Source: Candidatus Fimadaptatus faecigallinarum
Lineage (GTDB): Bacteria; Bacillota; Clostridia; Christensenellales; Aristaeellaceae
Assembly: GCA_018714445.1 (NCBI GenBank)
Contig: DVNK01000009.1
Span: 1-54,566, forward strand
Direction of reading: 5' to 3'
Length of the DNA stretch: 54,566 nt
Part shown: piece by piece, positions 6,872-54,566 of the stretch
Position numbering within the stretch: the stretch's first letter is position 1
Layout of the letters: each line of letters opens with the position of its first letter
Notes under the pieces: generated by a model
What the model was told of the DNA's origin: nothing
Seen by the model: only the letters and a program-made list of their open reading frames with translations
The model's database searches: none
Made by a program: the position numbers and the translations under genes

Positions 6872-8299
6872 TTATTTGGGCAGTGTGACCGTAAACACCG
6901 AGCCCTTGTCCTCGACCGACTGCACGTTTATCGTGCCGCCGTGCAGCTGCACTATCTGACTGACTATCGACAAGCCCAGGCCCGTGCCGCCGGTCTCGCG
7001 TGAGCGCGCCTTGTCCACCCGGTAGAACCGGTCGAATATATGCGCTATGTCGGCGGCAGGTATGCCTATGCCGGTGTCCGACACCTTGATTATCGCGCTG
7101 CGGGCGTTTTCGCCCAGCTCCACGCGCACGCGGCCGCCCGCCGGCGTATACTTTATGGCGTTGTCGATGAGGTTGTAGAACACCTGCTGTATCTTGCTGG
7201 CGTCGCCCTCGACGACCGGCGCGGCATGCGCCTCCAGCGTAAGGTTTATCTCGCGGTTGCGCGCCAGCGGCGTCAGGCGCTTGACCGTGTCGGCCAGCAT
7301 CTCGTCCAGCTGCAAGTCGCCCAGCCTCAGCCGCATCTCGCCGCTGTCCATGTTGACCAGCGTCAGCAGATCGACTATTACCGAGTTAAGCCTGTCTATT
7401 TCCTTATTTATGTCGGTTAAGAACTCGCGCGTCATCTCGGGCTCGAACGTGTCCTGATATATAAGCGATTCTATTAGTATTTTCATCGTCGCCAGCGGGG
7501 TCTTGAGCTCGTGCGACGCATTGGACACGAACTGGCTGCGCGAGCGGTCCAGGTTTTCGAGCTTTTCGCTCATCATGTTAAACGCCGCCGCCAGCTGAGC
7601 GTACTCTGAATGGCCGCGTATTATCACGCGGTGGCTGAAGTCGCCCACGCTCATGTGCTCTATGCCCTCGCTGAGCGCCTTTATTGGCTTGGTCACCATC
7701 CGCGACAGCAGCAGCACCATCAAAAGCGTCACCAGCGCCACGCCTATCAGCCAGTACACCATCTGAGTCTGCATATACGTAAGCCGGCTGTACAGCTCCT
7801 GCTCGTTGACCGAATAGAGCAGCACGCCTATCACCTTGTCGCCCGACACTATGCTGGACGCGTACAGACCGTATATCGACGCATCGCCGGCAAACCCCAG
7901 CCGGCTCAGCAGCCAGTTGCCGCTGGGCTGAGTCTCCTTATAAAAGCTGTATGCGCTGGACTTTTCGCCGCTGAGCACCGCTACGACCTCGGGATGTTCC
8001 AGCCGGGCGCCATTGAGCTGCGAAAACGCGTCGGCCTGCACCGTGCCATACGCGTCCAGTACCAGCACGCGCCCGCCGTACTCGCGCGACGCGGTCACAG
8101 CGGACTCGTACAGCGCGCCGGCGTCCTGATCCGCCAGGTCGGACGCCACGCTTATCGCCAGTTCCTCGGCGATGCGCTGCTCCTCCTGCACGCGCTGGCT
8201 GAACATATAGTCGCCCACCAGCTGTATCAGCGACGCCGCGACTACGTAAAACGCCACGCCTATTATCAGCAGATACAGCAGCAGCAGCTTCCAGCGCAC
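6872..8299 (-). CDS. Two-component sensor histidine kinase
   Basis: A 475-residue membrane kinase that pairs with the response regulator just upstream. Membrane segments lie at about residues 5-28 and 180-199, with a 150-residue extracellular sensor domain between them. A HAMP domain (about 200-252) is followed by HisKA with the phosphoacceptor H263 in SHELKTPL, then HATPase with N box NLIDNAIKY (376-384), G1 DTGIGIP (408-414) and G2 GGTGLGLS (437-444). There is no PAS domain, unlike classic WalK. The frame's first usual start is GTG 8299, 16 bases after the regulator stop. The AAGGA there is rather far away and would fit a CTG at 8311 better, so the exact start is uncertain. Confidence 0.95.
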   Translation of the reverse strand: MRWKLLLLYLLIIGVAFYVVAASLIQLVGDYMFSQRVQEEQRIAEELAISVASDLADQDAGALYESAVTASREYGGRVLVLDAYGTVQADAFSQLNGARLEHPEVVAVLSGEKSSAYSFYKETQPSGNWLLSRLGFAGDASIYGLYASSIVSGDKVIGVLLYSVNEQELYSRLTYMQTQMVYWLIGVALVTLLMVLLLSRMVTKPIKALSEGIEHMSVGDFSHRVIIRGHSEYAQLAAAFNMMSEKLENLDRSRSQFVSNASHELKTPLATMKILIESLIYQDTFEPEMTREFLTDINKEIDRLNSVIVDLLTLVNMDSGEMRLRLGDLQLDEMLADTVKRLTPLARNREINLTLEAHAAPVVEGDASKIQQVFYNLIDNAIKYTPAGGRVRVELGENARSAIIKVSDTGIGIPAADIAHIFDRFYRVDKARSRETGGTGLGLSIVSQIVQLHGGTINVQSVEDKGSVFTVTLPK

Positions 8300-8315
8300 C
8301 GACGCGACCAGGTTT

Positions 8316-9008
8316 TTAATCCTTGTCAGTGAAATAGTAACCCACTCCCCACTTGGTGAAGATGTACATGGGCTGCGCCGGGTTCTTCTCTATCTTTTCG
8401 CGCAGGCGGCGTATGTGCACGTCCACCGTGCGCAGGTCGCCCAGGAACTCGTACTTCCATATGCTCTCCATCAGCATCTCGCGGCTGAACACCTTGCCGC
8501 GATTGGTTATGAACAGCTGCAAGAGGTCGAATTCCTTGGCGGTCAGGTTGACGTCGCGCCCGGCTATCGACACAGAGCGGTTGTTGAAGTTGACCGTCAG
8601 GTCGCGCACGGTTATCTGCGACTGCTTTTCCTCGGGCTTGGACGCGCCCACGCGCCGCAGTATCGTCTTTATGCGCGCCTTGACCTCCAGTATGTTGAAA
8701 GGCTTGGTCATGTAGTCGTCCGCGCCGTACTCAAGGCCCAGGATCTTGTCCATGTCCTCGCCCTTGGCGGTCAGCATGATTATCGGTACAGTGCTCTTTT
8801 CGCGTATGCGCTGGCAGACCTCTATGCCGCTCATGCGCGGCAGCATCACGTCCAGCAGTATCAGATCGAAATCCTCGCTTTCGAATTTGGCCAGGGCCTC
8901 CTCGCCGTCGGCTGCGGACACCGTTTCATATCCATCCTGTTCGAGTGAGAATTTGAGCCCCTTGAGTATCAACGGCTCGTCGTCAACGAGCAACAGTTTT
9001 TTTGCCAT
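8316..9008 (-). CDS. OmpR/PhoB-family response regulator (WalR/MtrA-like)
   Basis: A 230-residue DNA-binding regulator. The receiver domain has the acidic pocket at D9-D10, phosphoacceptor D53 in LLDVMLP, T80 and K102 in TKPF. A winged-helix DNA-binding domain fills about residues 131-226. I use ATG 9008 rather than a farther upstream codon, because MAKKLLLVDDE is the usual start of the family and AGAGGGG precedes it. It is first in the operon with the kinase and two GerMN proteins, behind a good promoter. Nearby cell-wall genes carry sites like the WalR box TGTWAH-N5-TGTWAH, suggesting cell-wall control. Whether it is the orthologue of WalR or MtrA cannot be decided by eye. Confidence 0.95.
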   Translation of the reverse strand: MAKKLLLVDDEPLILKGLKFSLEQDGYETVSAADGEEALAKFESEDFDLILLDVMLPRMSGIEVCQRIREKSTVPIIMLTAKGEDMDKILGLEYGADDYMTKPFNILEVKARIKTILRRVGASKPEEKQSQITVRDLTVNFNNRSVSIAGRDVNLTAKEFDLLQLFITNRGKVFSREMLMESIWKYEFLGDLRTVDVHIRRLREKIEKNPAQPMYIFTKWGVGYYFTDKD

Positions 9009-52903: not shown

Positions 52904-53260
52904 TCAGTCGGAGCCGCCCGAGCCGAACGCGCTGCACTGGCAGAGCTGCGTGCCGGTTATCGTCTTGCCGGTACCGCCCTGCAGGCAGAGGCAGAACTTC
53001 CTCTTCGAGCTTTTGCCGTATCCAGCTTCGCTGCAGGTGCACGAATTGCCGCCAGCCATCGAGCAATAGCCGCCAGCCACGGCGGTCAGCTCGTCATCGC
53101 TCACCTCGTCGGCTCCTTGTTCAAAGTCGCCATCCGTCAGTTGCATGCCCATAGTGCGCGCCAGCTCCCGCAGCTCATCCGCGCTCATTGCGACGGCGCG
53201 CTCGGCCAGCCCGGCGTCTCGGGCGATCATCTCGAGGAACGCCTTCATGTTGTCTGTCAT
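52904..53260 (-). CDS. Nif11-leader peptide precursor, copy 1 (last in cluster)
   Basis: A 118-residue RiPP-type precursor. Residues 1-64 form a Nif11-like leader starting MTDNMKAFLEM, acidic toward SDDELTAVAGG, where processing after GG (63-64) is expected. The 54-residue core has seven cysteines; six lie in three motifs CTCSEAGYG, CLCLQGGTG and CQCSAFGSG, each C-x-C-x3-G-x-G, and one more follows the GG (YC). ATG 53260 has AAAGGAG eight bases upstream. It lies 48 bases after copy 2 on the same strand. Whether the cysteines bind metal, form disulfides or become thioethers cannot be told from sequence. Confidence 0.85.
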   Translation of the reverse strand: MTDNMKAFLEMIARDAGLAERAVAMSADELRELARTMGMQLTDGDFEQGADEVSDDELTAVAGGYCSMAGGNSCTCSEAGYGKSSKRKFCLCLQGGTGKTITGTQLCQCSAFGSGGSD

Positions 53261-53308
53261 GTATACGTCTCCTTTCCAGCCGTACATTATCGTCCAGCGC
53301 GCGCGGCA

Positions 53309-53647
53309 TCAGTCCTCACCGGTGCCGTACAAGTAGCAGTCGCAGCGAAATTTCCCGCCCAGGCCCTTGCCAATGCCTATCGCCACGCAGCCGCACGGAT
53401 TGTTTTTGTCGCCGGCCGTGCCACCGCCGCCCGCCACGCAGGTGCACTTACCGCCGCCTGCGACCGTGCTCAGCTCATCGTCGTTGATCTCGCCATTCCC
53501 TTCGGGCGCCAGGTCGGCCTCGCCCAGTTCGAACCCCTGCGCCTTGGCCAGCGCCACAAGCTCCGCCTTGTCGAGCTTGGACGCACGCTTGGCCAGCTCG
53601 TCGTCGGCCGATATCCGTTCCATAAACTTTTTCATGTTGTCAGTCAT
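53309..53647 (-). CDS. Nif11-leader peptide precursor, copy 2
   Basis: A 112-residue paralogue. The leader starts MTDNMKKFMERIS, has helical Leu/Ala/Lys segments, and ends NDDELSTVAGG (GG at 64-65). The core of about 47 residues has exactly six cysteines in CTCVAGGGG, CGCVAIGIG and CDCYLYGTG, each C-x-C-x3-G-x-G, with 14 residues between successive CxC pairs. ATG 53647 has AAGGGAG eight bases upstream. It is 75 bases after copy 3. It is the most regular member of the family here. Confidence 0.86.
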   Translation of the reverse strand: MTDNMKKFMERISADDELAKRASKLDKAELVALAKAQGFELGEADLAPEGNGEINDDELSTVAGGGKCTCVAGGGGTAGDKNNPCGCVAIGIGKGLGGKFRCDCYLYGTGED

Positions 53648-53722
53648 GTATAACACTCCCTTATAAAGCCCTGTTTGCCGCCGGATGCGCATTGCCCGCA
53701 ATCCATGCACGCCTTTGCCGCG

Positions 53723-54073
53723 TCATTCGTTCACGCCGCCGCCGCAGAAGTTGCAGGAGCAGCGCTGCGTGCCGTCGGTGAAATTGCCGTTGCCCGCCGC
53801 ATAGCATCCGCAATAATTGTGCCGCAGGTCCTTGTACTCCTCACCGACGCCAGCCAGCACGCAGCCGCACCGCTTGCCGCCTGTGACCGACAGCAGCTCG
53901 TCGTCCGACAGCTGGTCGTTGGGTTCCGTGGTCAGGTCAGCCTCGCTGATGTCCAGCCCGAATGCCCTGGCCTCGGCTATCAGTTCGGCCTTGTCGCTTA
54001 TCTTGCTCAGGCGCTCGCCGAGCTACTGATCGTTGGATACCATTTCCATCAGTTTCTTCATATTATCAGTCAT
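53723..54073 (-). pseudogene. Nif11-leader peptide precursor, copy 3, interrupted by an in-frame TAG
   Basis: The frame starts at ATG 54073 with AAGGAG six bases upstream, and reads MTDNMKKLMEMVSNDQ before TAG at 54025-54023 (codon 17). After it the same frame continues without a gap for 99 codons to TGA (53723-53725), with the full leader (SDDELLSVTGG) and a core holding CGCVLAGVG, CGCYAAGNG and CSCNFCGGG. A single base change from GAG or CAG would explain the TAG. Because everything else is intact, the break must be recent, or it is a sequencing error. A TATAAT-like site (54098-54103) lies just upstream. Confidence 0.75.
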
Positions 54074-54274
54074 ACGCCGCTCCTTAAATCGATTCAAATT
54101 ATATCGGCAGCCACGAGCGAGCCCACGGGTGAACCGGCTCGACGCCGGCTGCATTCCTGCACGTTTTAGCCCCGTCGGCCCGCACGGCGTCCGCTCCGGG
54201 CGCGCGACGCGCAGCCGCATCGGACTTCAGTGTCATCGAAGCCGCTTCACATCGCCTTTGGCGCCGCCAGTCGA

Positions 54275-54566
54275 CTAATGGTCCACGCCGCCGCCGATGC
54301 TAGCGCAGCGGCAGCGATTCACTTTGTCTTCGAACACGCCGCCGCCCCCGAAGCTGCAGTCGCACTCCTTGCAGTTATCGCCCGCCTTGCCGACGCCGCA
54401 CACGACGCACGCGCACTTGCCGCCGCCTGCGACCGCGTCCAGCTCGTCATCGCTCAGCTCCGCGCTCGTATCCGCTGCGAAATCGGCCTCGCTCAGCGCT
54501 ATGCCCCGCTGCTGCGCTTCGGCTATTATGGCATCCTTGTCCATGCCATTGAGCCGTTCAACCAAC
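54275..54566 (-). CDS. Nif11-leader peptide precursor, copy 4, 5' end beyond the window
   Basis: The frame is open at the right edge, so about 18 leader residues are missing by comparison with copies 1-3. The visible part has the leader end SDDELDAVAGG and a core with eight cysteines: CACVVCGVG, CDCSFGGGG and CRCASIGGG, plus a cysteine just before the second motif (NCKECDC) and one inside the first motif. The stop is TAG 54275-54277. The gap to copy 3 (54074-54274) contains no gene. It is the first of the four in transcription order seen here; more may lie upstream. Confidence 0.82.
   Translation of the reverse strand, partial: LVERLNGMDKDAIIAEAQQRGIALSEADFAADTSAELSDDELDAVAGGGKCACVVCGVGKAGDNCKECDCSFGGGGVFEDKVNRCRCASIGGGVDH

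Follow-up and report, generated by a model that had tools for sequence, protein, structure and literature searches.

Four paralogous small genes for peptides with a Nif11-type leader are located on the minus strand at the right-hand end of contig DVNK01000009.1 of Candidatus Fimadaptatus faecigallinarum. With their relatives in other genomes these genes almost certainly represent a family of ribosomally synthesized and post-translationally modified peptides (RiPPs) matured by a radical S-adenosylmethionine (SAM) enzyme. The core of the mature peptides is probably made up of three palindromic modules, each a beta-hairpin held shut by a nested pair of Cys-to-Gly thioethers, and the case for nested bonds of the alpha-thioether type is evenly balanced. 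The motif of the modules (C-x-C-x3-G-x-G), the leader, the association with the enzyme and, in part of the loci, an exporter are supported directly, and the family looks like an undescribed natural peptide family. The window (the whole stretch of DNA analysed, 54,566 nucleotides) is the entire contig C48 of a home genome of 2.6 Mb, which is assembled in 65 contigs and 91.1% complete.

The leader of each copy in the window is acidic and has V-x-G-G at its end, and by this leader the copies are classified as Nif11-type RiPP precursors. The TIGR03798 model (Nif11-like leader; cut-off 32.3 bits) was passed by copy 1 (40.0 bits) and copy 2 (43.7 bits), and scores below the cut-off were obtained for the truncated copy 4 (26.9 bits) and the copy 3 fragment (25.2 bits). 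The leader of copy 2 also matched PF07862 (29.3 bits, cut-off 23.8). A preliminary description of the window had reported four tandem precursors; four paralogues with one leader type are indeed present, but the leader of copy 3 contains an in-frame TAG at 54024-54026 and that of copy 4 is truncated where the contig ends. Because of the TAG no full-length precursor would be made from copy 3 as read here; intact paralogues occur in the same genome. The features of the array are as follows.

52904..53260, minus strand: precursor copy 1, with Nif11-type leader, V-A-G-G and three C-x-C-x3-G-x-G units; core at about 52907-53068.
53309..53647, minus strand: precursor copy 2; core at about 53312-53452.
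53723..54073, minus strand: precursor copy 3, interrupted; core at about 53726-53875, all three units kept.
54275..54566, minus strand: precursor copy 4, leader truncated at the edge of the contig; core at about 54278-54421, start at the end of contig C54.
54462..54566, no strand: exact overlap of 105 bases with a contig terminus of C54, on which further copies of the array follow.

Each core in the window holds exactly three units, and all 12 fit C-x-C-x3-G-x-G with 13-16 and then always 14 residues between the C-x-C pairs, just as the preliminary description had it. Counted from C to C, the unit starts are 16/17 residues apart in copy 1, 17/17 in copy 2, 19/17 in copy 3 and 17/17 in copy 4. 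At least three units were found in 5 of 800,000 shuffles of the cores (200,000 for each copy, with 1, 0, 1 and 3 cases, respectively). Contig C54, which overlaps the window in the opposite reading direction, contains the remainder of the copy 4 leader, two further full three-unit copies and one degenerate remnant, and two more three-unit copies are located on contig C12, so that the home genome has eight three-unit paralogues (four in the window, two on C54 and two on C12). In an alignment of the eight, for which copy 3 was taken from after its stop and copy 4 without its missing start, every copy keeps all frame residues (six Cys and six Gly), and most other core positions vary. A truncated ATP-binding cassette (ABC) ATPase fragment lies at the end of contig C12 (L013 1-240), adjoining its two precursors, and contig C30 (L016 7435-7839) has an odd three-unit open reading frame (ORF) with a Nif11-like start and no Gly-Gly site before the units.

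The enzyme association was determined with a search in which the core was not used. An alignment of eight family enzymes, all of the radical SAM/SPASM type, served as the query against 84,980 GTDB species genomes, and the best 80 of 174 relatives were analysed, some of them from genomes already contained in the family search described below; 44 of the 80 loci have 5 kb on each side of the enzyme. The preliminary description had proposed that a set of unit-bearing precursors adjoining a common enzyme would support a new class, and such precursors, usually with exactly three units each, were found in 55 of the 80 loci when one-unit leader-bearing precursors are counted. In 51 loci an ORF held at least two units, and in 46 loci at least three. 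The strand of the enzyme carried 106 of the 108 ORFs with at least two units (both exceptions are in L155), and the nearest such ORF was at most 150 bp from the enzyme in 44 of 50 loci, distances being measured from stop-to-stop frames. By record name the 55 loci belong to Bacillota (38), Actinomycetota (6), Synergistota (6), Spirochaetota (1) and Acidobacteriota (1, a metagenome bin), with three unplaced. The three-unit label was clustered in the enzyme tree (18 changes versus a shuffled mean of 27.4, none of 500 shuffles being as low), a result that near-copies favour. One locus of a Marvinbryantia bin (L099, 9393 onward) has 12 unit-bearing ORFs downstream of a single enzyme.

The strength of the frame was examined in ORFs near family enzymes that were chosen by their leader, again with the core left out of the selection. 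Of these ORFs 170 share the strand of the enzyme and 4 are on the opposite one, and the 170 held no unit in 66 cases, one in 5, two in 9, three in 88 and four in 2, i.e., either no unit or exactly three in 154. Four-unit ORFs were seen at L065 8006-8572, L122 6622-7029 and L145 9901-10338. In 120 non-redundant cores with at least two Cys (256 C-x-C in total), Gly occupied offset +6 relative to C-x-C in 93% and offset +8 in 97%, and no other tabulated offset exceeded 43% Gly; at least three units occurred in 70 of the 120, and none of 200 shuffles of the set gave a three-unit core. Small or hydrophobic residues predominate at positions 2, 4 and 5 of the unit, and Gly or Ala at position 6. The commonest linker lengths are 8 residues for the first linker and 8, 9 or 15 for the second. 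The position tables show, besides the two Cys and two Gly, no constant acidic or other functional residue, no constant Ser/Thr and no constant Tyr in the unit, and Gly residues are therefore the only constant acceptor candidates.

This frame bears on two readings in which the enzyme does not link Cys to Gly. C-x-C pairs are common metal ligands, and the enzyme family also adjoins precursors with other cores, as expected if the thiols were kept for metal or cluster binding and the radical SAM enzyme carried out, for example, an epimerisation or served other precursors; however, metal sites do not need strict Gly at +6 and +8, the peptides have an export-type leader and the neighbours of the enzyme are these very precursors in 55 of 80 loci, so we consider a metal site highly improbable. 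Six frame Cys, being an even number, behind an export-type leader would also suit a disulfide ladder in which Cys-Cys bonds, formed between C1 and C3 or across units, close the three hairpins and the enzyme has its target elsewhere, and a C39 exporter is encoded in 30 of the 80 loci. C-x-C disulfides are strained, though, and a ladder would leave the Gly frame and the enzyme association unexplained, making it a most improbable account. The earlier proposal that each unit is folded or modified as a module is supported by the enzyme association, which, among the options it offered (metal site, thioether ring and disulfide ladder), favours without proving a linkage made by a radical SAM enzyme.

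Precursor and enzyme were also compared across the 308 genomes of the home GTDB family. A precursor profile built from the eight home copies matched 36 genomes (E up to 0.001); the matches reached the end of the core in 19 according to the match table, and the rest were mostly leader only. Among the 19 core-spanning genomes the best ORF is a three-unit one in 14 and a four-unit one in a single genome; it has two units in G152, one in G123 and none in G102 and G080. Half of the 20 stretches around core-spanning precursors hold the family radical SAM/SPASM enzyme, and some of the others are contig ends. When a close enzyme is defined by a score of at least 580 bits (the next one down being 540), close enzyme and core-spanning precursor occur together in 16 genomes, the enzyme only in one (G241), the precursor only in three (G065, G123 and G243) and neither in 288 (Fisher p = 8e-23), a p value that overstates the evidence because the 580-bit line was set post hoc and the genomes are related. 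Counting only precursors with at least two canonical units gives 14, 3, 2 and 289, respectively. Among the precursor-only genomes, G065 has a more distant enzyme (498.5 bits), and G123, whose core has one intact unit, yielded no match to the enzyme within an E-value of 1e-90. A core-spanning precursor was found in only one (G065) of the 31 genomes whose relatives of the enzyme all score lower.

The home genome encodes a single enzyme of the family (C51:29436-30848, 891.6 bits); its next radical SAM proteins, on contig C4, reach at most 244.9 bits. In an alignment of 68 members the CxxxCxxC motif as well as C346, C364, C411, C420, C424 and C444 are invariant and C414 is nearly so, a pattern that we take to fit a SPASM domain carrying two auxiliary clusters. 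For the home enzyme, the AlphaFold model (predicted local distance difference test, pLDDT, 91.5) is nearest, among PDB structures, to SuiB, SkfB, PqqE and 5why (a structure whose title refers to sactipeptide thioether formation), all of which are presumably SPASM peptide-modifying enzymes, and its N-terminal region consists of strands followed by two helices, an order that might be seen in a RiPP recognition element (RRE). The solved structure closest by sequence is SkfB (81.3 bits), a sactisynthase by the title of PMC6231123.

Comparison with NCBIfam models was made for three enzymes (home, L058 and L068), and none of the 25 best models listed for each reached its cut-off, the highest score among the models listed being that of ScmE (95 of 400 bits). 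The StsB model scored 71.9-77.7 bits on the three enzymes (home 76.8; cut-off 625) and the SkfB model 55.0 bits on L058 and 50.2 bits on L068 (cut-off 300), SkfB not being among the 25 listed for the home enzyme. The PapB model scored 57.8 bits on the home enzyme (cut-off 340) and was not among the 25 listed for L058 and L068; StsB thus ranks above SkfB and PapB among the thioether maturase models listed. The PapB score, from a ranthipeptide maturase, speaks for a different radical-SAM thioether, in which Cys would be joined to unit residues 4-6 or to beta or gamma carbons (ranthipeptide-like), or to Gly in unnested rings, with Gly otherwise needed only for the turn. The enzyme association would be equally expected in that case, and the rings of streptosactin are unnested according to PMC8172795. 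Against this stand the two Gly as the only constant acceptors in the unit and the rank of PapB below StsB on the home enzyme (57.8 versus 76.8 bits, both far under cut-off), and we regard such a linkage as unlikely, though a real contender.

The nested Cys-to-Gly linkage is preferred because both of its elements are documented in known sactipeptides: nested S-C-alpha rings are the rule, with streptosactin excepted, RumC2 has two such hairpins, and a Cys-Gly sactionine is documented in streptosactin (PMC8172795). It fits Gly as the sole constant acceptor candidate, the usual count of three units and the fact that the frame travels with one enzyme family. The unit is palindromic around residue 5, with C1 opposite G9 and C3 opposite G7, and the structure model of a home precursor has one two-stranded beta-hairpin per unit, in which the strand ends of units 2 and 3 match the C1-G9/C3-G7 register. 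We propose that a dedicated radical SAM/SPASM enzyme probably binds the Nif11-type leader and that, in the home genome, the C51 enzyme would act in trans on precursor arrays on other contigs. Each module C1-x-C3-x3-G7-x-G9 would fold as a beta-hairpin, in which the enzyme would form S-to-C-alpha (sactionine) bonds between C3 and G7 and between C1 and G9, so that each module would hold two rings, one nested in the other, and each peptide six. The leader would then be cut off at Gly-Gly by a C39-peptidase ABC exporter, which would also export the peptide; this is probably bacteriocin-like or a signalling peptide.

Several observations weigh against this scheme. The precursor model is of low confidence (pLDDT 66 on average, about 41-64 in the core blocks) and places unit 1 one residue off the proposed register; a pairing signal was looked for in partial modules and not found in the seven cases there were. 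The curated sactipeptide maturase models are far below cut-off on the family enzymes, and a Pfam search with the first 96-100 residues of five of them gave no RRE domain. By the filters used, no unit-bearing precursor was found in 25 of the 80 enzyme loci, some of which end near the enzyme. The 25 include a Synergistaceae enzyme clade of eight (SH-aLRT, i.e., Shimodaira-Hasegawa-like approximate likelihood ratio test, 99; L123, L135, L137, L138, L139, L144, L154 and L156), and the precursors examined for six of these (all but L137 and L138) have other cores. The enzyme family is therefore not restricted to the three-unit motif, and the linkage may have switched in this clade. Likewise, three of the 19 precursor genomes lack two canonical units (G102 and G080, which read G-x-N, and G123 with one unit), and the 580-bit line of the co-occurrence table was chosen after the score gap was visible. 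In the home genome the enzyme, the array and the only C39 exporter are on separate contigs, and the precursor adjoining the enzyme is decayed. Homologs in which the frame is not kept, which the preliminary description had named as evidence against a class, were found in a minority (the Synergistaceae clade, G102 and G080). The C-x-C-x3-G-x-N frame is found in two units each in G102 (L076 about 8200-8560) and G080 (L044), both genomes with a family enzyme.

The scattered array, the TAG in copy 3, the remnant on C54 and the decayed copy on C51, which has no intact units and lies upstream of the radical SAM gene, raise the question of whether the home copies are relics, a view that is compatible with the other readings. 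Yet seven of the eight three-unit copies are open over the available sequence (copy 4 spans two contigs), all eight keep the 12 frame residues and the enzyme ORF is open across the whole profile. Precursors and close enzyme also lie on different contigs in G213 and G232, and 12 kb apart in G238. We judge it improbable that the home copies are relics. Modification genes local to the array were sought on both sides and not recognized, the ORFs being read by eye and no family search made with them: the ORFs on the window side read as comM/dprA/topA and the upstream ORFs on the C54 side as housekeeping genes in the order ffh, rimM, trmD, rplS, rnhB.

Among the 80 enzyme loci, 30 encode a C39-peptidase ABC transporter resembling the one of L058, and up to 45 a second ABC protein, some of these being possibly unrelated ABC proteins. 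The L058 transporter, which adjoins an array, passed the TIGR03796 model for NHLP-family export (863.4 bits, cut-off 853.3). The extension of the contig that the preliminary description had called for led to more of the array on C54; the home enzyme is not next to the array. The single C39 domain of the home genome is on contig C4, away from array and enzyme. It belongs to a separate Nif11 cluster (L018 4178-17008) with four radical SAM/SPASM proteins, a C39-ABC protein, a second ABC protein, a YcaO-like ORF and one precursor, the core of which is Ser/Cys-rich and does not contain the motif. This cluster was considered as the maturation site of the array and rejected: its own precursor is without the motif, and its enzymes score at most 245 bits versus 891.6 for the C51 enzyme (at most 330 versus 736 with a broader enzyme profile). 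The C4 cluster is more likely a different pathway, which may lend its exporter to the array.

Among known systems, the family can be compared with the sactipeptides (subtilosin A, thurincin H, ruminococcin C, streptosactin), with which it shares Cys-rich cores adjoining radical SAM/SPASM enzymes and SkfB as the best PDB sequence match of the enzyme. Unlike them it has a Nif11 leader, three tandem short exact-frame modules with Gly as sole constant acceptor candidate and as many as 12 unit-bearing ORFs in a single locus (L099), and the StsB and SkfB models are far under cut-off. An enzyme encoded with its precursor, a criterion for sactipeptides, is found in the relatives (55 of 80 loci), and in the home genome the enzyme is only on another contig. 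The system would work like a sactipeptide pathway; membership in the class is unproved, as it depends on the proposed bond and the scores of curated maturase models fall short.

With SCIFF peptides and ranthipeptides (TIGR03973; PapB, CteB) the family shares six frame Cys in about 45 residues and a radical SAM/SPASM maturase, and it differs in its Nif11 leader, Gly frame and hypervariable paralogues, SCIFF usually being one nearly fixed peptide per genome. An identity with this group was rejected, with no TIGR03973 match at E up to 1 and a PapB model score far below cut-off. SCIFF-type clusters are reported in a paper on pig-gut isolates describing Bullifex porci, and a rumen bacteriocin survey defines its ranthipeptides by TIGR03973. 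Prochlorosins, for which one promiscuous enzyme (ProcM) serves many precursors according to PMC10783134, resemble the family in the Nif11 leader and many variable cores, and one enzyme may serve many precursors here as well; the family differs in having a radical SAM enzyme and units without constant Ser/Thr. A lanthipeptide reading was rejected since the home genome, at 91.1% completeness, has no PF05147 (LanC) match.

Spliceotides combine a SPASM radical SAM enzyme with a leader of the Nif11 or NHLP type (PMC11002830). The family shares the Nif11 leader and the SPASM radical SAM enzyme and differs in that its units have no constant Tyr. TIGR04103 (nif11-class maturase 3), which we take to be the model for PlpX-type spliceotide enzymes, gave only 75.7, 74.3 and 70.1 bits on the three enzymes (cut-off 725), so that this identity was rejected too. 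The preliminary description knew of no peptide class with this pattern, and this held up: no NCBIfam or Pfam model covers the precursor core above its cut-off, and a literature search, mostly without subscription journals, found no paper describing the core motif or the enzyme family. The papers found on Nif11 together with sactionines were a review of genome mining and a study of an azole-containing proteusin.

A broader proposal is made more tentatively, with doubt slightly outweighing belief, namely that the family is a modular class in which three autonomous nine-residue hairpins, with two nested Cys-to-Gly alpha-thioethers each, are formed by a single enzyme, leader-guided and iterative in action, which responds to the palindromic frame alone and accepts variation at the other positions. 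Record names place it in Bacillota, Actinomycetota, Synergistota and Spirochaetota, largely from animal guts, with diversification through arrays of up to a dozen precursors. Members occur in strain-named records (Pseudobutyrivibrio sp. OR37, Collinsella tanakaei An791 and Bullifex porci), so the family is open to direct testing. If the proposal is true, the nine-residue rule C-x-C-x3-G-x-G directs the formation of two rings, three times per peptide, and leaves the other residues free, which would amount to a simple programmable hairpin code for stable peptides and to a class of exported peptides that is widespread in the gut bacteria of animals and has apparently not been studied.

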